Shown piece by piece: positions 6,315 through 45,965 of a stretch of DNA of 64,000 nucleotides. The DNA comes from Nitrososphaeraceae archaeon. Its GTDB lineage: Archaea > Thermoproteota > Nitrososphaeria > Nitrososphaerales > Nitrososphaeraceae. The stretch covers positions 1-64,000 of the forward strand of contig JALDRC010000002.1 in the NCBI GenBank assembly GCA_031316115.1, read 5' to 3'. A model generated the notes under the pieces. It was not told the DNA's origin and did not search any database. It saw only the letters and a program-made list of their open reading frames with translations. The position numbers were made by a program, and so were the translations under genes. The stretch's first letter is position 1. Each line of letters starts with the position of its first letter.

Positions 6315-7341
6315 TTACCGTTGTGTTGCTACTTGTCCATCAATTGTATCTAATACATCATCGGATTGTTTCTATAAATACAGGATCAAATGGATTACTT
6401 ATTTCAATGTTAGGGATATTATAATATCCTAGATTAGCCACCTACAGAGTTGTACTTTGAATTGCTATAACATTTGGTTCAGATAAATCTCCTGATCCAA
6501 ATTCACTTACATGTACAGGTGAACTAGGATTAGTTATATCATATATTTCTACAGTACCATCACCAACATTAGTTACATATAGAGTTGTATCTTGAGATGC
6601 TATACCAAATTGTGCATCTAAATCTATTGCACCAAATTCACTTTCACGTACAGGTGCACTCGGATCACTTATATCATATATTTCTACAGTATTATCTCCA
6701 CGATTAGTCACATACAGAGTAGTACCTTCAGCTGCTATACCAGATGGTTGATTTAAATTTCCCGCATTAAATTCATTTATATGTACAGGTGACCTGGGAT
6801 CATTTACATCATAAATTTTAAAGGTATCATCATTAACATTAGTCACATAAAGAGTTGTACCTTGAGTTGTTATACCCATTGGTCCATTTAAATTTCCTCC
6901 ATTAAATTCACCTACACGTATAGGTGTACTCGGATCACTTACATCATATATTTCTACAGTATCATAACTATTATTAGCCACATATAGAGTTGTAATTTGA
7001 GATGGTGGAAGCGGTTCTACAATTCCTGCCCCATTATTATTTTTACAAAAATTTACTATATTATCGTTAATACCGATAGATTCTTTTATATCTCCTTTAC
7101 CTAACCATTGATCTGTTCCATCATCATATCCTTCTCCCATCATTGTACCAAGCATATCTGCTCCTGTACCCTGACCAGCGCTATCTAATCCATTTATTAT
7201 GATGTTGTTACAATTTACTTTCTGAAAATTAATCTTTGAAGACTTTTGGTCTTTTCCATACGAATATTCATAAGATTGTGCAAAGGTTGCTCGTGGAATC
7301 ATCGTAGAAATTGTTCCTGCTATTAATATCGCCCTTAACAA
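6315..7341 (-). pseudogene. Secreted two-Cys domain fused to LVIVD beta-propeller, broken
   Basis: The N-terminus is a signal peptide remnant (LIAGTISTMIPRATFAQS). Next comes a two-Cys domain like the small secreted proteins at 27-29 kb (VNCNNIIINGLD... NIVNFC). Then come LVIVD-type propeller repeats of about 43 residues (TTLYVTNVGDGTVEIYDITN). Three lesions are visible. The usual ATG-Lys-rich signal start is missing, leaving a TTG. A TAG at 6442-6444 sits where the repeat expects Tyr (TTLY-VANLGYYN). A later frameshift separates FDPVFIETI from DDVLDTIDGQVATQR, which ends at 6315. An intact version would be a surface propeller of about 340 residues. Confidence 0.7.
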
Positions 7342-21719: not shown

Positions 21720-22712
21720 TTATTTAGTACCAAATGGCGATGGTCCAGTTGATTGTTCGGGTGTTAATATGGGATTTCTATCAGGAGCTGGCGCGGATTT
21801 ACCAGGTACATCAGAACAATAAGGATCTTCATCTACCCGTCCATCACCATCATCGTCTATTCCATTTCTACAAATTTCATCGTCATAAAGAGGGAGATCA
21901 CAGTGGGCTGTTAAACATTCCTCCAGTTCAGGATTTTCTTCTAAAGATGTAGGTCCTGGTACAAGCACAGGGTTACGATTAGAAAGAGGGTGAGATGCTT
22001 GAGGGAGATCTTTTGTTATTAAATCATCCAAATTAAACGCATCCGACAGTGCACCTTGTTTTAAACCTTCTATATCTGAATTAAATGGTTCAGCTGCTGG
22101 AGGTTGTATCTGATCACCACGATGTTCTTCCGATATTAGATCTTTTAAACTTAAATTAGGATTTGATTTTATTGCTTTTTCCTGTGATGTTGTTGCTAAT
22201 GACGATTGAGGAGTTTTTGTAAATGTTTCTACTTCAAATGGGTCAACAAGTGTAGGAATATTGGAATTGTCCTCTTCTTCTTTTATTTTATCCTCATTAG
22301 AAAAATCTGTTCCTTCAACACTATTATTATCATTAATTCCTTCTACATCGTTCCCACCATCCTCTTCTACATCGTTCCCACCATCCTCTTCTACATCGTT
22401 CCCACCATCCTCTTCTACATCGTTCCCACCATCCTCTTCTACATCGTTCCCACCATCCTCTTCTACATCGTTCCACCTCCTTCTACATCGCCCACCATCC
22501 TCTTCTACATCGTTCCCACCATCCTCTATGTTCCCACCATCCTCTTCTACATCGTTCCCACCATCCTCTTCTACATCGTTCCCACCATCCTCATCTGATG
22601 TTGCATAAATTTTGTTGAACATATTGGCTGTTTGAAAAGAAGGACTCGTAGTTAAAATAAAACTGATAAGAGCTACAAGAATTGCGCCTATTAGAAAATT
22701 TTGTATTTTCAA
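21720..22712 (-). CDS. Secreted acidic repeat protein with EF-hand-like motif
   Basis: The 330-residue protein has a signal peptide (MKIQNFLIGAILVALISFIL...). About eleven copies of an 8-residue acidic repeat GGNDVEED follow (about residues 42-128), then an acidic linker, and near the C-terminus NGIDDDGDGRVDEDPYC. That is a DxDxDG calcium-binding-type loop of the kind found in secreted 'putative metal-binding' proteins. The protein is very acidic and probably binds cations at the cell surface. Start is TTG at 22712. One repeat region reads GGRCRRRWNDV: small compensating indels shift the frame for six codons and restore it. Confidence 0.65.
   Translation of the reverse strand: MKIQNFLIGAILVALISFILTTSPSFQTANMFNKIYATSDEDGGNDVEEDGGNDVEEDGGNIEDGGNDVEEDGGRCRRRWNDVEEDGGNDVEEDGGNDVEEDGGNDVEEDGGNDVEEDGGNDVEGINDNNSVEGTDFSNEDKIKEEEDNSNIPTLVDPFEVETFTKTPQSSLATTSQEKAIKSNPNLSLKDLISEEHRGDQIQPPAAEPFNSDIEGLKQGALSDAFNLDDLITKDLPQASHPLSNRNPVLVPGPTSLEENPELEECLTAHCDLPLYDDEICRNGIDDDGDGRVDEDPYCSDVPGKSAPAPDRNPILTPEQSTGPSPFGTK
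22345..22602. repeat. 24-bp tandem repeats encoding GGNDVEED
   Basis: The plus-strand unit is CCATCCTCTTCTACATCGTT plus CCCA. About eleven copies occur; one is six bases short (giving GGNIED) and one zone near 22470-22495 has paired indels that leave the overall frame intact. Confidence 0.9.
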
Positions 22713-23644: not shown

Positions 23645-25084
23645 ATGAGCTTCATCAAAGTATGTTTCTGGAATTTACAAAATCTATTTGATACGACATT
23701 AAGTGATATTGCATTGCACTTTGATTACACTCCTGCTAATGGATGGGATGAAACAGTAAGAGATATAAAAATTGATAATATAGTCAAGGGAATTTCATCT
23801 ACCTTTCCATCCGGCCCTGATTTAATTGGAATGTGTGAAATTGAAAATGAATATCTTGCCCAGGAAATAGCAACAAAGTTGAATAGAAATCTAGATAGAA
23901 ATGATTATTCTGTTGCAAAATATAAAGATAGTCCAGATATACGGGGAATAGATACAGGTCTTATTTATTCAAATTCAATTTTTGAATATATAGACTCTAA
24001 ATCATACAATATGAATTTACGTTACCCTACCAGAGATATTTTTTATATAAAACTTAAAGTCTTATCTAATAATTCCAATCTTCATGTCTTTGTAAATCAT
24101 TGGCCATCTAGGCGAGGAAAAGATGATTTTACAGAATCTGATGAAACAGAATTTGCAAGATCTTTTGTAGCAGAAAATTGCGGCAAGTTGATAGATGATA
24201 TTCTTAAAATCCCAAAAGAAAAATCTTTTAGACTTCCTAAATGTTTAATCGACTGTCCAGAATATGAAAAAGATTTCAAACCTTATGATCAAGATGCTAT
24301 TACTGATAAATTAGACAAAGATGAAATAAGAAGAAGAAATGATAATTTGTTAAAAATATTAGATGATGTATGGAATGAAAATATTATATTAATGGGTGAT
24401 TTTAATGACGAACCTTACAATAAGAGTTTAGTCAAATTTCTTAATGCTATTCCCAATCCAGATCAGTTAAGGGATTGGAGAACTATTTTTCGATTAAAAA
24501 GAAAAGATTGGTATAATACAAAATCGGATAGAGAAATATATTTGGAAGAAAAGCCATATTTATATAATTGCATGTGGAAACTTATTCCAGATGGAACTCA
24601 TTATTTTTACAAGACGAATTCCCTCTTTTTATTTGATCAATTTATTGTATCTCGAGGATTATTAAATAATTTAAAAAACCTCCAAATAGATTTGGATTCA
24701 GTCAAAATACATAAAAACGGTCTTTCTTTAGGCAGCAATTTATTAGATGAGAAATTTGACGATAGTGTCAATAGAGATAATAAGAAAAAGTTACATACAT
24801 ATCAGAAATATAGTCCCATGGCATTTAAATTTTCTAAAACTAAAATATTTGATTTATATAAAAATGTAAAGGAAAAAAAAGAATTAGAAATAATATTAGA
24901 AGAAGCATTAAAATTAAATCTAAATGAAAATATTACAAAAATAATAAAAGATAAACTTAAAGGCTTGACAGATAGGTTATATAAAATACAAAAAGATAAA
25001 GGATACCATGCTAACTTTGCCCAAGATCCTAATACAGGCTTTAGTGACCATTTCCCAATTAAATGTATAATTAAAATAAATTGA
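23645..25084 (+). CDS. Endonuclease/exonuclease/phosphatase (EEP) family protein
   Basis: The 479-residue enzyme has the DNase I-like fold motifs in order: FWNLQNLFD (Asn ligand), PDLIGMCEIENE (metal-binding Glu, about residue 65), HVFVNHWPSRRG (catalytic His), NIILMGDFNDEP (Asp/Asn pair) and SDHFPIKC at the C-terminus (final Asp-His). EEP enzymes cut phosphodiester bonds in nucleic acids or phosphoester bonds in lipids. The N/HWPSRRGG-type motif is shared with large bacterial secreted nucleases, but no signal peptide is seen, so this form should be cytoplasmic. A Lys-rich helical insert of about 120 residues sits just before the last motif. Start ATG at 23645; a TTTTTAAAAAAAGAATAAAA stretch precedes it. 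Confidence 0.85.
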   Translation: MSFIKVCFWNLQNLFDTTLSDIALHFDYTPANGWDETVRDIKIDNIVKGISSTFPSGPDLIGMCEIENEYLAQEIATKLNRNLDRNDYSVAKYKDSPDIRGIDTGLIYSNSIFEYIDSKSYNMNLRYPTRDIFYIKLKVLSNNSNLHVFVNHWPSRRGKDDFTESDETEFARSFVAENCGKLIDDILKIPKEKSFRLPKCLIDCPEYEKDFKPYDQDAITDKLDKDEIRRRNDNLLKILDDVWNENIILMGDFNDEPYNKSLVKFLNAIPNPDQLRDWRTIFRLKRKDWYNTKSDREIYLEEKPYLYNCMWKLIPDGTHYFYKTNSLFLFDQFIVSRGLLNNLKNLQIDLDSVKIHKNGLSLGSNLLDEKFDDSVNRDNKKKLHTYQKYSPMAFKFSKTKIFDLYKNVKEKKELEIILEEALKLNLNENITKIIKDKLKGLTDRLYKIQKDKGYHANFAQDPNTGFSDHFPIKCIIKIN

Positions 25085-26369
25085 TAGTAACGAAATTGAA
25101 TGATAGAATAACTAATTTTTTGTATTTTACTTCAAATTTTTAAATAATATTTAAATGTTATAAGCTTGATAATAATTCGTAGAACGGTATGGCTTTAACT
25201 AATAAATCGCATATATTTAAGTTATCTAATATATAAGTAGTATCAGATCACAGATGAGTACTAAAATATTGTTTCCAATAAAAATAAAATATAAATATTT
25301 TATATAAATACATTATTACTTATCAATGAATTCGTTTATGACATCACTTCCTTTCAGAAAATTGGCACTTTAGTGCATGGACTCCTTCAATAAAAGAAAA
25401 TACAAGAATATGGTTATTAAGATAAAACCAATATTAATACCGCCATTAAACGTCCATATATATTTCTCGTTTTCAATCTTAATTTGTTCTTATTGGGATG
25501 TTTTTAAAATGCAGTTTTCTATCCAATAAGAAATTAAACTAATGCTAATACTACAGTTCTGAGTTGTTTAATCAATAACAGTAATTGAACACATAATACG
25601 TGACTATCCAACTCCTTCCAGGACAGTAGTTTTTACTGACCTATCTAGTTCAGTAAACTGTTATATGATATTGTTGGAAGAAACAACGATTTGCCTAAAA
25701 CTAATGTATTTTGATTCTAGATAGTTATTGTAACTGACACAGCTATTTCTACCCAGATTAAAAACGTTTAATCTTAATAATCATGATAAAGGTAATTTTT
25801 AAAGGATATTTTAATGTAGAAATTGGACATAATATCGATCCTATAAAGTAGATAATTTCTTTAAATGAAATTCAGAATATACCATCGGGAAATTCATGAT
25901 CTGTCAGGCTAAAATAATTTTCACGCAATCTATTGTTAGCCATAATTGAACAATAATTATTTAAGATGATTTTTATTATTTAATTTTCTTTTTTTTTATG
26001 TTTGTTAAAGGAGTGATATGTTCTCTATGATTTTGAACCTTCTGTTATCAAACATCATTCTTGAAAATATGTATAGTTATATTATCATTCAATTCATTAC
26101 GCAATTGTGAGGCTAATTGTAGAAAAGTTAGTTTGGCGTAAGAACAAGAGTTTGAGATTTTATCTGTCTAATTGAAAAATAATATTACAAAAAAATAATT
26201 AGTTTATAATTTTATAATTTTATAAAATAATACTACTTATTTACACACTAATTAACAAAACTAACATTTGATAATAATTTATTCAAATTAAATTGTACAA
26301 GAGGTTTATGATAGTATATAGTGTCTCAATTCATGTTAGAATATATTTGATTTGATATTTTTATCAAAA
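25085..26369. other. Long AT-rich intergenic region
   Basis: No convincing gene. TTTACTGA and TCAGTAAA at about 25635-25660 form a hairpin. GCACTTTAGTGC near 25366 is a short palindrome. A minus-strand open frame around 25380-25500 could encode a 37-residue single-span peptide (YIWTFNGGINIGFILITIFL) but has no start codon. A TATA-like AATATATT about 25 bases before 26370 likely drives the next gene. Confidence 0.35.
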
Positions 26370-26804
26370 ATGAAGTCTGTTATAACATTAGGTATTGTTT
26401 TGACTTTTAGTATACTATTTACTTCATCCTCAGGACTATTGAAAGGTCAGGTCTTTGCAAGCATAGAAGAAGAAGGAGAGAATAGTTATTATCCAGATAA
26501 ATATCACCAATATGATAGAGAATCATCATTTTCTGCTGGGTCTCCAGGAGTACTTAGTGGCAACATTTTGAAGGGAATAGATAAAGAACAACTTAAAGAG
26601 ATTGAAGATAAATTATTTCAAGGAATAGATAAAGAAAGATTATTAAATAATGCTATAAACTTGTTGCATGAATACGATTTTGATATCGGAGCTTTAAATG
26701 AATATTTGCTAGAAGATTCTTGGGGTTATGGAGGTGCTTTTGTATTAATTTTAGTACTTTTCATACTATTGGTCATCATAGGTGCAGGAGTTGGATGGGG
26801 TTAA
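26370..26804 (+). CDS. Secreted/membrane protein with glycine-rich C-terminal TM tail (YjcZ-like)
   Basis: A 144-residue protein from ATG 26370. It has a signal peptide (MKSVITLGIVLTFSILFTSS... VFA), then an acidic segment and a repeat-like helical part (GIDKEQLKEIEDKLFQGIDK). The C-terminal end is WGYGGAFVLILVLFILLVII then GAGVGWG. That tail strongly recalls the short YjcZ-type sporulation proteins of Bacillus (GYGxGFALIVVLFILLIIVG). The likely topology is an extracellular domain anchored by the C-terminal helix. Function unknown. A TTG at 26352 also opens the frame, but the TATA-like box fits 26370. Confidence 0.6.
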   Translation: MKSVITLGIVLTFSILFTSSSGLLKGQVFASIEEEGENSYYPDKYHQYDRESSFSAGSPGVLSGNILKGIDKEQLKEIEDKLFQGIDKERLLNNAINLLHEYDFDIGALNEYLLEDSWGYGGAFVLILVLFILLVIIGAGVGWG

Positions 26805-26952
26805 TAGTAACTAGAAATAAATTCCATACGATTTAATACTAAAACTATTTTATTTTTATTAAAATAACACGAAGAATTAGTTATATCAATTAGTATACTT
26901 TACTATTTTTATAAAACAATCAATAATAACTATCTAATATTTAGCAAACCAT

Positions 26953-27022
26953 AACAACATTATACTACTACTTTATAGTCAAACAATCTCTAAGGTTTGT
27001 TCGTACGTCAGATATACTATAT
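26953..27022 (+). promoter_or_regulatory. Shared promoter block A (53 bp identical) of the two-Cys secreted family
   Basis: Bases 26953-27005 are identical to 27817-27869. Both end in GTTTGTTCGTA, followed by a TATA-like GATATACTATATTTG about 25 bases before the ATG. A shorter version precedes the third paralogue. This is a duplicated promoter, probably with an operator at GGTTTGTTCGTA. Confidence 0.65.
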
Positions 27023-27038
27023 TTGAATGTAAAAACCA

Positions 27039-27656
27039 ATGAATAGTAAAACCAAAATAGGTTCTATGTTTCTGTTAGCAGCTGTACTTGTGGCAGGAAC
27101 AATATCAATGACTATTCCATCATCATTTGCTTCCTCTGATTCCAGAGACCATAATGACTACTATGGAAAAGACAGAAATTATGACTATAAGGATGACTAT
27201 AAAAAGAAAGATCCATACTACATGAAAGATGACTATAAAAAGAAAGATCCATACTACATGAAAGATGACTATAAAAAGAAAGATCCATACTACATGAAAG
27301 ATGACTATAAAAAGAAATACCCACATGAAAAGAATTACTATTCTGAAGACAAGAAATATCCATTTGGAAAAGACCATGACAAAGAGTATAAAGGTGTAAG
27401 CGCTCAGAAGATAAAATGTATCAATAGTAACATCAACATAAATGATGTAGATGTTAGCAAATATGCTAACGGATTTGGCGCAGATGCAACCACAGCAGAA
27501 GCATTACAAGGAGATGAAAATGGTTTCGCAGATGGAAATAGTAATGGAATATCTGGCAATGGCGGAATTGACATAGAAAGAAATCTAGTAAACGTCTGTT
27601 TAGATATTAATCTTAACGCACAAAACGACGAATTATTCGATTTTCTCTTTCAATGA
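27039..27656 (+). CDS. Two-Cys small secreted protein with DYKKKDPYYMKD repeats (paralogue A)
   Basis: The 205-residue protein has a signal peptide (MNSKTKIGSMFLLAAVLVAG... SFA). A Lys/Asp/Tyr-rich region follows with three exact 12-residue repeats (DDYKKKDPYYMK) and a fourth partial one. The C-terminal domain runs from QKIKCINSNININDVDV to IERNLVNVCLDINLN. The two cysteines (about residues 127 and 188) bracket a variable Gly/Asn-rich loop and could form a disulfide. The same domain occurs in the next two genes and, fused to a propeller, at 6315-7341. The repeat region is unique to this copy. Probably cell-surface; function unknown. Confidence 0.7.
   Translation: MNSKTKIGSMFLLAAVLVAGTISMTIPSSFASSDSRDHNDYYGKDRNYDYKDDYKKKDPYYMKDDYKKKDPYYMKDDYKKKDPYYMKDDYKKKYPHEKNYYSEDKKYPFGKDHDKEYKGVSAQKIKCINSNININDVDVSKYANGFGADATTAEALQGDENGFADGNSNGISGNGGIDIERNLVNVCLDINLNAQNDELFDFLFQ
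27192..27310 (+). repeat. 36-bp tandem repeats, three copies
   Basis: The unit encoding DDYKKKDPYYMK is repeated three times with no base differences, showing very recent expansion or homogenisation. Confidence 0.9.
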
Positions 27657-27668
27657 GGATAATTCTCC

Positions 27669-27686
27669 TTTTTTTTATTCTTTAGA
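27669..27686 (+). terminator. T-tract terminator
   Basis: T8 followed by ATTCTTT lies 12 bases after the stop of paralogue A, the usual archaeal oligo-T terminator. Confidence 0.5.
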
Positions 27687-27816
27687 TTTTTATAAATTTA
27701 TCAAACTATTACTCTATTAATATTTTAACTGTGTAGTTATAATAGAGTGTACACATATATCCTATACTTATTTTATACAACATTCAATTATAACTATCTA
27801 ATATTCTAACATCTCT

Positions 27817-27885
27817 AACAACATTATACTACTACTTTATAGTCAAACAATCTCTAAGGTTTGTTCGTATCCTAGATATACCATA
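27817..27885 (+). promoter_or_regulatory. Shared promoter block B of the two-Cys secreted family
   Basis: Identical over 53 bp to 26953-27005, with similarity continuing upstream (TAACTATCTAATATT). A TATA-like AGATATACCATATTTG lies about 25 bases before the ATG at 27904. Confidence 0.65.
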
Positions 27886-27903
27886 TTTGAAGTTAGTAGA
27901 CCA

Positions 27904-28284
27904 ATGAATAGTACAACAAAGATTGGTTCTATGTTCTTGTTGGCAGCAATAATGGTAGCAGGAACAGTATCAATGACTATCCCCAAGTCATTTGCTCTAG
28001 ATTTCCAAGAACCATTTGCAAATGACCACAAAAAAGATTCTAAAAGTGCAAATGTTCAAGAGATAAAATGTATCAATAGCAACATCAATATCAATGGAGT
28101 AGACATTCATAAACGTCAAGCAGCAGGAGCAGCTGAGGAAGATGCAGCAGCAAATGCAGTACGAGAAAATGGTCAAAATGGTCAAAGAAACGGCTTATTT
28201 GATGGTTTAAACATCGACAGAAATCTAGTAAACATCTGTGTAGATGTAAATCTTAATCATCAATTCGATGAACCACAAGAATAA
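27904..28284 (+). CDS. Two-Cys small secreted protein (paralogue B)
   Basis: A 126-residue protein with signal peptide MNSTTKIGSMFLLAAIMVAG and then the family domain: QEIKCINSNININGVDIHK, an Ala/Glu/Asn-rich loop, and LNIDRNLVNICVDVNLN. It lacks the Lys/Tyr repeats of paralogue A, so it shows the minimal form of the family. It has its own copy of the promoter block and a T-rich tail (about 28301-28316), so it is a separate unit from its neighbours. Function unknown; probably secreted or surface-bound. Confidence 0.7.
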   Translation: MNSTTKIGSMFLLAAIMVAGTVSMTIPKSFALDFQEPFANDHKKDSKSANVQEIKCINSNININGVDIHKRQAAGAAEEDAAANAVRENGQNGQRNGLFDGLNIDRNLVNICVDVNLNHQFDEPQE

Positions 28285-28720
28285 TGAAGTAAACATTAAC
28301 TTCTTTTTTATTTTTATATCATATTTATCTGGTAAAAAATCGCAACACAACTTCTACTAGTTTTTTCTTTGTTATCCAATTAACACCTAAGACATTGTAT
28401 TCAGAATAACGAAAAATATATTATTACTTTGTTACTAGACTGTTTTCTGAATTAATTATAAAATTACTTAAATCATTCTTATAATATATAATATGTAAGA
28501 AGGTTTTTGTCTGTGGGTATCTATATGATGGGTAACTTGTAGATGAAAACCTTCGATCAAATAAAATTCTATTCTTATTTAGAGACAAAGAATCGGAACT
28601 TTCAAATGTCATCTCTGTAGATACTTATCTTCCTTGTTATTCTATTTTATTATAAAACAATATTTTCTAACTATAATAGGAATAGTTCATTCCTAATGAA
28701 ATTATATTAGTAGATTATAT
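28285..28720. other. Intergenic spacer with a long-loop hairpin
   Basis: GAAGGTTTT (28499-28507) pairs with AAAACCTTC (28546-28554) across 38 bases. No coding frame is persuasive; the minus-strand frame at 28424-28612 has no family features. Confidence 0.35.
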
Positions 28721-28727
28721 TTGAACA

Positions 28728-28765
28728 CTATCTAATGTTTGTTCGTACCATACATATACTATATT
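28728..28765 (+). promoter_or_regulatory. Diverged promoter block of the two-Cys secreted family
   Basis: TATCTAATGTTTGTTCGTAC and CATATACTATATTCGG match the GTTTGTTCGTA box and TATA region of blocks A and B, with the upstream part lost. Confidence 0.55.
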
Positions 28766-28781
28766 CGGATCTAATAGAACA

Positions 28782-29168
28782 ATGAACACTAAAACCAAAA
28801 TGGGTTTTATGTTGTTGTTAACGACAGTAATACTTGTGACAGGAATAATATCAACGACTATTCCAAAGTCACTAGCAGAACCAGGTGCGAATATCCAAGA
28901 AATCAAATGTGTCAATTTCAACCTTAATATAAATGGAATAGACGTAAAGAAAATCCCAAGAGGAGTGACAGAAGATTCAGCAGCACAACAACTTAATGGA
29001 AATAATGTTCCAAATGGTGGAAGAAATGGATTATTTGATGAAATTAACGTTGATAAGAATCTAGTCAATATATGTCTAAATTTTGATTTTAATCATCAAA
29101 AAAAATTTGATCCCGTGAATTCAGATTTTACTACACCAACACCTAATCCGATGTCTGATAATACATAA
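28782..29168 (+). CDS. Two-Cys small secreted protein (paralogue C)
   Basis: A 128-residue protein: signal peptide MNTKTKMGFMLLLTTVILVT... SLA, then QEIKCVNFNLNINGIDVKK, a shorter variable loop (EDSAAQQLNGNNVPNGGRNG), and INVDKNLVNICLNFDFN. It ends with a Pro/Thr/Asn-rich tail (FTTPTPNPMSDNT), perhaps cell-wall associated. It is the most diverged of the three tandem copies, matching its more diverged promoter. Function unknown. Confidence 0.7.
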   Translation: MNTKTKMGFMLLLTTVILVTGIISTTIPKSLAEPGANIQEIKCVNFNLNINGIDVKKIPRGVTEDSAAQQLNGNNVPNGGRNGLFDEINVDKNLVNICLNFDFNHQKKFDPVNSDFTTPTPNPMSDNT

Positions 29169-29496: not shown

Positions 29497-29790
29497 ATGA
29501 CTACTAAGACCAAAAACAACAATACAAAGAATATGAATACTAGTGATATAGAAAAGTACATAAAAACAAAAAACCTAGGTCTAACATTTCAAATATAAAA
29601 TCTAATATTATTAAAATAAATTGAGTTGATAACACTGGTCAAGAGCCAACAGGAGAAATGCATGCAGGAATGACTGACAAAAGTGATGGAACAGGTCAAA
29701 AAGACGATAAATGGCTAGGAAACGGTGAAAAGAAATGCAATAAGATTAACAAGAATATCGTAAATTACTCAGTACATTCATCTCAATTCA
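29497..29790 (+). pseudogene. Decayed two-Cys secreted family member
   Basis: The start MTTKTKNNNTKNMNTSDIEK has lost its hydrophobic signal core. After stops and a frame change the reading resumes as NIKSNIIKIN, TGA, VDNTGQEPTGEMHAGMTDKS, DGTGQKDDKWLGNGEKK and INKNIVNYSV. The GTGQxDDKWLG-NIVN part matches the propeller-fused copy at 7.1 kb (DGTDQWLGKGD... NIVNFC). One of the cysteines is gone. Confidence 0.55.
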
Positions 29791-37695: not shown

Positions 37696-40600
37696 ATGAA
37701 TTTGTTCTGGATATTATTATTTTTTATAGTGACTCCGACCTTTGTTTCTATATATAATTTTTCATTAATCAATGTATCTGGAGAAGTTATCAATGGTACT
37801 GACCAAGATGATTTTCTTCATGGTACCAATGAACAAGATACTATCTTTGGACTATTAGGCAATGATGCGCTTTATGGTAATGAAGGCGATGATACTATTT
37901 ATGGTAATGAAGGCAACGATAGGCTTTATGGTAATGAAGACGATGATACGCTTTATGGAAATGAAGGCAATGATACGCTTTATGGTAATGAAGGTAATGA
38001 TCGGCTTGAGGGATTCACAGGTATTGACTGGCTTGATGGAGGTATAGGTGATGATACGCTTTATGGTAATGAAGGTAATGATCGGTTGTATGGTAATGAA
38101 GGGGATGATAGAATCGATGGAACAGAAGGTAATGATCGGCTTTATGGCAACGAAGGCAACGACTGGCTTGTTGGAGGTATAGGTGCTGATACGATTTATG
38201 GTAATGAAGGGGATGATCGGCTTGATGGATACGAAGGTAATGACTGGCTTGTTGGAGGTATCGGAAATGATATGCTTGATGGAGGTATAGGTAATGATAC
38301 GCTTGATGGTAATGAAGGCAATGATAGGCTTGATGGTAATGAAGGCAATGATAGGCTTGTTGGATCTATTGGTAATGATACGCTTGTTGGAGGTTTAGGC
38401 AATGATACCCTTTATGGAAATGAAGGTAATGATCGACTTTATGGTAATGAAGGTAATGACTGGCTTGATGGAGGTATAGGAAATGATCGAATTGATGGAG
38501 GTATAGGTAATGATACCCTTTATGGAAACGAAGGTAATGACGAACTTTATGGATCTAATGGTAATGATACCCTCGATGGCGGTATAGGTAACGATACACT
38601 AGATGGAGGAATAGGAAACGATACGCTTTATGGACATGAGGATGATGATATGCTTTATGGCGGTATAGCAAATGATACTATTTATGGTAACGAAGGTAAC
38701 GATTGGATTGATGGAAATGAAGGTATCGATTCACTCTATGGCGGTTTAGGAAACGATACCATTTATGGTAGTGAAGGTAATGACAAACTTGGAGGAGGTA
38801 TGGGTATCGATTCACTCTATGGCGGTTTAGGAAATGATACCATTTATGGAAATGAAGGTAATGACTGGCTTGATGGAGGTATAGGTAATGATACGGTTTA
38901 TGGGAATGAGGGTAATGATAGAATTCATGGGAGTCAAGGTAATGACTGGCTTGATGGCAACGAAGGTAATGATAGGCTTGATGGAGGTATAGGTGATGAT
39001 ACGCTTTATGGAAACGAAGGTAATGACTGGCTTGATGGGAATAAAGGTAATGATAGGCTTGATGGGGGTATAGGTAATGATACGCTTTATGGAAACGAAG
39101 GTAATGACTGGCTTGATGGCAACGAAGGTAATGATACGCTTTATGGAGGTATAGGTAATGACACGCTTTATGGCAACGCAGGTGATGACTGGCTTGGCGG
39201 AGGTATAGGTAACGATACCATTTACGGGAGCGAAGGTAATGATTTTCTAGAGGGTAGCGCAGGGAATGATACCCTTTCAGGAGGCATAGGCGATGATAGA
39301 CTTGAAGGTGGTCTAGGTAATGATATGCTTTCAGGAGGTATAGGCGATGATAGCATTGATGGTGGTCTAGCTAATGATAGGATAAGTGGCAATCTAGGCA
39401 ATGATACGCTCTCAGGAGGTATCGGTAATGACACGCTATATGGCAATGAAGGCAATGACACGCTATATGGTAACGAAGGCAATGACTGGCTTTATGGCAA
39501 CGAAGGCAATGACTGGGTCGTTGGAGGTATAGGTGATGATACGATTTATGGACACGAAGGTAATGATACGCTTTATGGGAGCGCAGGTGATGATAGAATC
39601 GATGGAACAGAAGGTAATGATCGGCTTTATGGCAACGAAGGCAACGACTGGCTTGTTGGAGGTTCAGGTAATGACATTCTTAATGGACACGAAGGGAATG
39701 ATATGCTTGAGGGATACGAAGGCAACGACTGGCTTGGAGGAGGTACACATAATGATAATCTTGTTGGAGGCGTAGGTAACGATACACTATATGGCAATGA
39801 AGGTAACGACACGCTTTATGGCAACGAAGGTAACGACTTTCTTGATGGAGGAACAAATAATGATACGCTTTATGGCAACGAAGGCAACGACTGGCTTGAT
39901 GGAGGCATAGACAATGATATCCTACTTGGTGGTATAGGTAATGATACGCTTTATGGCAACCAGGGTAACGATACACTTTATGGTGGCGAAGGTAATGACG
40001 GGCTCGGAGGAGGTACAGGTAACGATACACTTTATGGTGGCGAAGGTAATGACGGGCTCGGAGGAGGTACAGGCAATGACAGGCTTGTTGGTGGCATAGG
40101 TAATGATACACTTGATGGAGGAGAGGGTAATGATGCAATTGTTGGTGGGATAGGTAAAGACACGCTTTATGGCAACAAAGGTAATGACTGGCTTTATGGC
40201 AACGAAGGTAATGACTGGCTTTATGGCAACGAAGGTAATGACGAACTTGATGGGGGTTTAGGTAATGATACGCTTTATGGCAATCAAGGCAATGATCTGC
40301 TTTATGGCAATCAAGGTAATGATAGGCTTGATGGATACGAAGGTAATGACGAACTTGTTGGAGGTATAGGTAATGACTGGATCGACGGAGGTACAGGTAA
40401 TGATAGGCTTTATGGCAACGAAGGTAATGATGAGCTTGCAGGAGGTTTAGGAAATGACACCCTTGATGGAGGAATAGGGAATGATACACTTGATGGGGGT
40501 TCAGGTAATGACCTGCTTAGTGGACACGAGGGCAATGATGTTCTTGATGGAAACGAAGGTAAAGACACGATTTATGGGAATCAAGGAAATGATACGCTTT

Positions 40601-40842
40601 ATGGTAATGAAGGTAATGATGCCCTTGATGGAGGAATAGGTAATGATACGCTTGCTGGAGGAACAGGTAATGACTGGCTTTATGGCAATGAAGGTAATGA
40701 CTGGCTTTATGGTAACGACGGTGACGACACATTAACAGGCGGACCAGGGTATGATCACTTTGTATGCGGGAATGGGAATGATAAAATAATAGATTTTACA
40801 TATGATTATGACGTAAAAGAACCAGATTGCGAAGAATTCTAG
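37696..40842 (+). CDS. Giant RTX-type calcium-binding nonapeptide repeat protein
   Basis: The 1048-residue protein has a short hydrophobic N-terminus ([20 protein letters not shown]) acting as signal peptide or anchor. About 105 tandem nonapeptides of the hemolysin type follow ([18 protein letters not shown]), from residue 35 to about 1015. The tail is short ([20 protein letters not shown]...). Each GGxGxDxLx turn binds calcium, and the whole should fold as a long parallel beta-roll outside the cell when calcium is present. No enzymatic domain is present and no type I secretion genes are near, so Sec export and a surface or adhesive role are likely. Repeats are highly similar at DNA level, a sign of constant homogenisation. 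Confidence 0.85.
37855..40740 (+). repeat. 27-bp tandem repeat array encoding RTX nonapeptides
   Basis: Roughly 105 units built from a few variants (TATGGCAACGAAGGTAATGA, GATGGAGGTATAGGTAATGA). Longer blocks also recur, e.g. the 54-bp pair at 39960-40075, showing segmental duplication inside the array. Confidence 0.9.
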
Positions 40843-45330: not shown

Positions 45331-45680
45331 TTTTATTTATAAAATAATTTTAATATTTCGATGTGACCTTCAATAAATTTTTAAAATAGAACAATTTTTG
45401 CTAATTATCTAACAGTAGTTAGTTCCTATGTCTACTAGATTAATAAATTATATTCAAACAATCTCCCATCTTAGTTGGAAGGTTAAGTATATTATATTTT
45501 ATCTAATATATCAATTAGTACACAAGCTTCACCAGATTAATTGTTTCTAATGATAGAAAAACATATCCTTGGAACAATTTTACTGATCATTTCTTCTTTC
45601 ATGGACCAGAATATAATTGTTATGATGATCGATACACAAATTAATCATTTGACAAAGAACTATATGTAAAAGATAACAAC
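45331..45680. other. Gene-free spacer
   Basis: No recognised frame apart from the start of the decayed secreted gene that follows. Confidence 0.3.
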
Positions 45681-45965
45681 GGTTATGACGTTTCATGCAA
45701 AGGACAGAGAGTATCAAAAAAGCTGAGGGTAAAAACAAAAACAATGTATTACCAGCAACGTCAAGATTAACGATGTAGATTTTAACCCAGTACTAATACT
45801 ATCAGACCAATTAGTAACAGTACAATCTACAAAAGATAATGATCTACCAAATGATAATTGTAAGTGATTGTTTGTTTATGCTTTCAATATAATCAAAAAT
45901 ATATTTAAAATCTATTTAGACATTAACAATAACGACCCATATAAAAGAGATATAGTTACATAAAT
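45681..45965 (+). pseudogene. Decayed two-Cys secreted family member
   Basis: Broken frames read CITSNVKINDVDFNP (compare KCINSNININDVDVSK at 27.4 kb), LVTVQSTKDNDLPNDN, and FKIYLDINNNDP (compare NVCLDINLNAQND). The order and spacing match the family domain; the signal peptide region upstream is not readable. Confidence 0.45.

Follow-up and report, generated by a model that had tools for sequence, protein, structure and literature searches.

A candidate co-regulated family of modular secreted two-cysteine proteins in a soil ammonia-oxidising archaeon

Three small genes lying side by side on the forward strand of a Nitrososphaeraceae genome (GTDB genus TH1177) resemble one another in their products as well as in the DNA in front of them, which raises the question of what kind of proteins they encode, whether these are expressed together, and what they might do for the cell. 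The genes are located in the window, by which we mean positions 1-64000 of contig 12, the entire 64,000-nucleotide stretch analysed here; the genome is 3.16 Mb in size and 98.8% complete.

The gene array and the two-cysteine module

Each of the three open reading frames was confirmed to encode a signal peptide followed by a mature chain with exactly two cysteines, as the initial annotation had described. Member 1 (27039-27656, + strand, 205 aa) consists of a signal peptide, a Y/D/K-rich spacer, a two-cysteine module of subfamily I and a short tail, and its spacer carries a perfect 36-bp tandem repeat in 3.5 copies (DDYKKKDPYYMK; 27192-27317, + strand). Member 2 (27904-28284, + strand, 126 aa) and member 3 (28782-29168, + strand, 128 aa) also belong to subfamily I, with a short tail and a 22-residue tail, respectively. 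The modules, all on the + strand, were matched by the family profile at 27396-27623 (7.9e-26), 28048-28263 (1.5e-23) and 28887-29099 (5.0e-23), each of these copies being itself part of that profile. Although the three genes are intact as claimed, the array does not end with them but continues into a decayed fourth copy (29586-29768, + strand; profile E 9.6e-8) that has an in-frame stop and lacks a promoter block.

A search of the same genome with a single protein retrieved 45 matching pieces, and the two-cysteine profile of 27 modules gave 36 matches at E<=0.001, or 37 when the cut-off was relaxed to E<=0.01. Distributed over 11 contigs, these comprise about 26 genes that appear intact (signal peptide plus both cysteines), along with relics and a few truncated copies. 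The common plan is a signal peptide, a Y/D/K-rich low-complexity spacer, a module of about 72 residues and then either a short tail or a domain. The module is formed by two short arms of alternating Asn and hydrophobic residues, with one invariant cysteine per arm, 54-64 residues apart. In subfamily I the arms read KC[IV]NxN[IV]NINGVD and NLVNICVNxNxNxQ and the tails are mostly 6-22 residues long; in subfamily II they read KCNNIIINGVD and NIVNFCKNKN and domains of 100-270 residues follow the module. Nearly half of the members are almost without a tail.

Export through the Sec pathway is well supported by these sequences. In the window trio the mean Kyte-Doolittle value of the h-region is 1.85-2.19 and no later hydrophobic segment is present, as in a Sec-type signal peptide, and throughout the module-bearing proteins a signal peptide is followed by no later transmembrane segment, as judged by hydropathy rather than a dedicated predictor. 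The signal peptide is incomplete in two 5’-truncated copies, the one at 6442-7302 of the window and L039. Short members contain neither an anchoring motif nor a membrane segment and could be freely soluble.

Both cysteines are invariant in all 27 aligned modules, each of which contains exactly these two, and 26 of the 27 mature chains have an even number of cysteines, a parity that does not amount to 27 independent tests as the chains are related. Even counts imply disulfides, as expected of disulfide-bonded exported proteins. An AlphaFold2 model from a five-sequence alignment (pLDDT 40.5, pTM 0.14) placed low-confidence strands at both cysteine motifs. Together with the alternating Asn-hydrophobic pattern, the paired cysteines, the low-complexity loop and the many short members almost without a tail, these strands are what would be expected of fibre-forming, amyloid-like subunits, in which strands with alternating Asn would stack from one molecule to the next in the manner of chaplins or curli, with short subfamily I proteins making up the polymer and tailed members decorating it. 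The Streptomyces chaplins (PF03777) are likewise small secreted paralogs with a conserved cysteine pair, Asn/Gly-rich strands and long and short forms. The present family differs from them in being archaeal, in its cysteine spacing of 54-64 residues, in its long variable loop and in its swapped C-terminal domains, and membership in PF03777 was rejected because none of the 27 modules matched that profile at E<=1. As this result also speaks against the comparison on which the fibre reading draws, we regard fibre formation as unlikely, although it is a close variant of the role in a cell coat or matrix that we favour below.

Upstream of the array lies a gene for a small membrane protein with a C-terminal YjcZ_2 (PF09680) segment (26364-26804, + strand), whose best score against the chaplin profile was E 0.07, under the cut-off. 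Genes of the same type adjoin two other family clusters (C1:64911-65348 and C1:5589-6023), and the product of 26364-26804 is 81% identical to the copy beside another family cluster; it is a possible partner of the two-cysteine proteins. The window encodes further proteins that attracted our attention. A 1048-aa exported protein (37696-40842, + strand; local GC 0.43, GC skew +0.44) consists nearly entirely of RTX-like repeats and is likely a calcium-binding surface protein. Another exported protein (21720-22712, - strand) contains a repeat of 11 x 24 bp (22340-22596) coding for VEEDGGND. Near the array, 23645-25084 (+ strand) encodes an endonuclease/exonuclease/phosphatase protein (PF19580) with no obvious signal peptide; congeners fuse the two-cysteine module to another domain of its superfamily.

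The upstream block

The box GTTTGTTCGTA occurs exactly at 26995-27005, 27859-27869 and 28737-28747, that is, at -44 or -45 from each ATG. The identical stretch upstream of genes 1 and 2 is real (26952-27005 and 27816-27869), though at 54 bp it is one base pair longer than had been claimed. Allowing up to one mismatch, the box occurs five times in the window where 0.89 matches would be expected; in 100 shuffles this count of five was never attained. An alignment of 16 genes revealed that the box belongs to a larger unit of about 110 bp that is conserved up to the ATG and has an indel-poor core, CATTATACTACTACATTATATTCAAACAATATCTAATGTTTGTTCGTACnCCAGATATACTATATTTGAA; the box at -44 is followed by a TATA-like element, AGATATACTATATTT, from about -30. 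A TATA-like element some 30 bp before the ATG fits a nearly leaderless start, which we take from general knowledge of archaeal promoters. We refer to this unit as the class A promoter block. On the + strand of the array it spans 26930-27041 through the ATG of member 1 (E 2.7e-24; this copy was among those aligned to build the model, and its TATA-like element starts at about 27009), 27794-27906 for member 2 (E 2.8e-26) and 28677-28784 for member 3 (E 1.3e-22). Since every gene has its own block and its own T-rich 3’ end, the proposal that one promoter serves all three genes was rejected.

A genome-wide scan with the block model yielded 18 strong sites (E<1e-17), every one directly in front of a family gene; 16 of the 18 had built the model, so the informative part of this result is that no unrelated gene scored comparably. 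Weaker sites stand before relics or diverged members of the family, before another exported protein (C12:384892) and before a glycosyltransferase-like gene (C18:1482); the latter two may be due to chance. The exported protein at C12:384892 (L134 of G000) is unrelated to the family (WWQW...LYLVG type) and has a partial class A block and the same style of spacer. The pattern of box plus ATATA had eight matches genome-wide and none in a reversed control; seven of them precede family genes, and the eighth, at C3:92, has its closest family member about 1.4 kb away. The common regulation that had been proposed from the window is thus supported as a prediction from sequence, the box being the core of a block that marks the family throughout the genome.

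Among paralogs, identity is 77% from -60 to -1 (52% when shuffled) and 74% from -150 to -61 (59% when shuffled), compared to 55% in the 150 bp past the stop codon, exactly the shuffled level. Fourfold degenerate sites are 56-59% identical, those of the signal peptide 59%, where about 46% is expected from codon composition. With 74-77% identity retained in the block, against shuffled-level similarity downstream and nearly saturated synonymous sites, we conclude that the block is under selection. Gene conversion acting alone is disfavoured as the reason why the upstream DNA is conserved, as it would have homogenised the adjacent signal-peptide codons, whose synonymous sites are 59% identical against 77% in the block; we therefore prefer selection. 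An RNA element in the upstream block was rejected, with neither a consensus fold nor an Rfam match above the gathering score. Two further promoter classes exist: class B accompanies a second type of signal peptide and tailed subfamily II proteins in six of six cases, and class C precedes two genes, one from each subfamily. In a TH1177 congener the block was weakly alignable (13 bits), and in genome-wide scans for the block none of the congeners had a site that reached E 0.01.

Variation, tails and module exchange

The loop between the cysteines had been proposed to diversify as in surface antigens. Its amino-acid identity of 39%, against 58-60% in the arms, is what diversifying selection by viruses or predators might produce; yet loop dN/dS was 0.2-1.0 and never exceeded 1 in any pair close enough to measure. 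The loop is rich in G, A, N, Q and D and prone to indels, and this low complexity and the indels suggest a relaxed linker instead. Antigen-like diversification was accordingly not borne out, and we consider antigenic variation most improbable. The arms have a dN/dS of 0.07-0.3 in most measurable pairs, indicating purifying selection. The parts that do vary are the spacer and the C-terminal domain, and this is barely seen in the three short copies of the window.

Tails in this genome include TSP_3 (thrombospondin-3), FG-GAP_3, an LVIVD beta-propeller, a CBM_14-type Cys-rich stretch and a four-cysteine domain, and most tails had no match. The four-cysteine domain (CEDCF ... LC ... CL; in L026, L029, L032, L037, L028 and L002) is helical-looking and without a Pfam match; of the 70 Nitrososphaeraceae genomes, 10 carry it, belonging to 5 of the 12 genera, and there it stands behind several other exported N-termini. 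Several tails (LTVKKEIFGCE ... LEPGTYTVNEI) resemble Cna-B repeats by eye, a lead only since Pfam gives no match. Congeners G002 and G005 have an endonuclease/exonuclease/phosphatase domain as tail (Exo_endo_phos; Pfam E 3.9e-14 for G005), a domain found in none of the family proteins of the window's own genome.

A constant N-terminal module, swapped C-terminal domains and tandem arrays are also characteristic of polymorphic toxin systems, and the Exo_endo_phos nuclease/phosphatase domain of the congeners would suit secreted effectors that are delivered by a common trafficking module and used on neighbours. The tails of the window's own genome, however, resemble adhesive or structural domains (TSP_3, FG-GAP, LVIVD), and nearly half of the members are all but tailless. 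Moreover, the neighbours of family genes are further family members with promoter blocks between them and no immunity-like genes. The toxin role that had been raised received no direct support, neither a toxin domain nor an immunity gene having been found in this genome, and we consider it quite improbable.

The arrangement of these parts indicates exchange. A 294-bp stretch spanning the module is 98.6% identical between L029_4665 and L029_6739, which differ in promoter and tail, while L029_4665 shares its tail with L026_3632; the classes of promoter, signal peptide and module are combined in a partly independent way. Duplication has also affected the segment in which the first family gene follows the YjcZ_2-type membrane gene (84% over 1015 bp), and the same gene order occurs a third time at C1:4-6 kb. 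Losses were also apparent. In addition to the decayed fourth array member, a relic on the + strand (45405-45935) retains a degraded class A block (45405-45515, E 8.2e-10) followed by a degraded module (approximately 45743-45935), and further relics are located at C14:370-371 kb and C20:23 kb. A subfamily II copy with an LVIVD-type beta-propeller tail (6442-7302, - strand) has a signal peptide without a start codon as well as a premature TAG and is probably decaying. Its propeller matched phrog_22523 at 4.9e-65 and had no tblastn match in phage records; a viral origin of the family was rejected, no relatives having been found among viral contigs. From these patterns the family is seen to evolve by birth-and-death with module exchange.

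Relics, block duplication and transposase-like ORFs near several clusters (read by eye) are also what a selfish or neutral expansion, driven by segmental duplication in a transposase-rich genome with no selected role, would leave behind. Such an expansion would not account for the purifying selection on intact copies or for a promoter block that has outlived synonymous sites, and we judge it very unlikely.

Distribution and proposed role

Comparison of the module with Pfam, NCBIfam and PDB gave nothing above cut-off, and a literature search of open-licence papers returned no account of the family. To judge from sequence comparison, the family is previously unclassified and its module is a new domain family. 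Homologues with both cysteines exist beyond this strain, in G004, in G005 and, more distantly, in G002:C397 (L076/L101), an exported protein in which a collagen-like GPPGPPGPQGPQGPAG stretch precedes a distant form of the module and the four-cysteine domain described above. With the first profile, the congeners G002, G004 and G005 (genus TH1177) gave a single module match each; a broader profile found one to three. Their genomes are fragmented MAGs, 69-92% complete, so these copy numbers are lower bounds, and the low counts may in part be an assembly effect. No module was found in 64 genomes of other Nitrososphaeraceae genera, complete ones included (70 genomes of the family Nitrososphaeraceae were scanned), where one sub-threshold match (E 0.03) was an unrelated enzyme-like protein, or in 397 further genomes sampled over the phylum. 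A contig scan that left out the window's own genome returned a TH1177 congener as its sole match.

We propose that these are probably co-regulated, modular extracellular or cell-surface proteins of a lineage-specific family in a soil ammonia-oxidising archaeon. With a common promoter block, a common two-cysteine module and differing tails, they resemble a kit of interchangeable parts, expressed together, for the cell surface or the matrix around it. After export, the Asn-alternating strands (KC[IV]NxN[IV]NIN and NLVNICVNxNxN) would be clasped by a disulfide into the common module, which would bring all family proteins together in one extracellular place, a cell coat or matrix. The spacer would keep the variable tail pointing outward for adhesion or display, and the common promoter class would allow the whole set to be expressed together. 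Copies would arise by segmental duplication, swap modules by recombination and end as relics. A more specific version, in which a dedicated regulon of some 18-26 interchangeable coat or matrix proteins has its export/clasp module and tails reshuffled by recombination and promoter classes A, B and C turn on different sets of tails together, is advanced only tentatively and may well prove too specific.

Known surface proteins of this group offer partial parallels. Adhesion proteins that ammonia-oxidising archaea induce in biofilms are single proteins of about 1000-3000 aa (PMC12448741); they are likewise exported, and in soil ammonia oxidisers their proposed place is the S-layer or the matrix, whereas the present family consists of modular paralogs of 120-400 aa with a common promoter block. 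Archaeal S-layer subunits are also far larger than the two-cysteine proteins, and some relatives are wholly without an S-layer (PMC11559005). Sheridan et al. 2020 (PMC7603488), who deposited a TH1177 genome, described genome expansion by gene duplication in the Nitrososphaerales; a text search of that main article on secreted and surface proteins revealed no such family.

The proposed role would matter beyond this locus. Ammonia oxidisers in soil have a major part in nitrification; the surface that they present to soil, minerals and neighbours is, to our knowledge, poorly characterised. The genus-restricted family described here, with its roughly 26 intact secreted members and a single promoter signature, is a testable candidate for this interface, and the promoter block is a ready-made regulon handle for finding the regulator. 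If the more specific version of the proposal, the dedicated regulon, is true, an ammonia-oxidising archaeon would have a modular, recombining cell coat.
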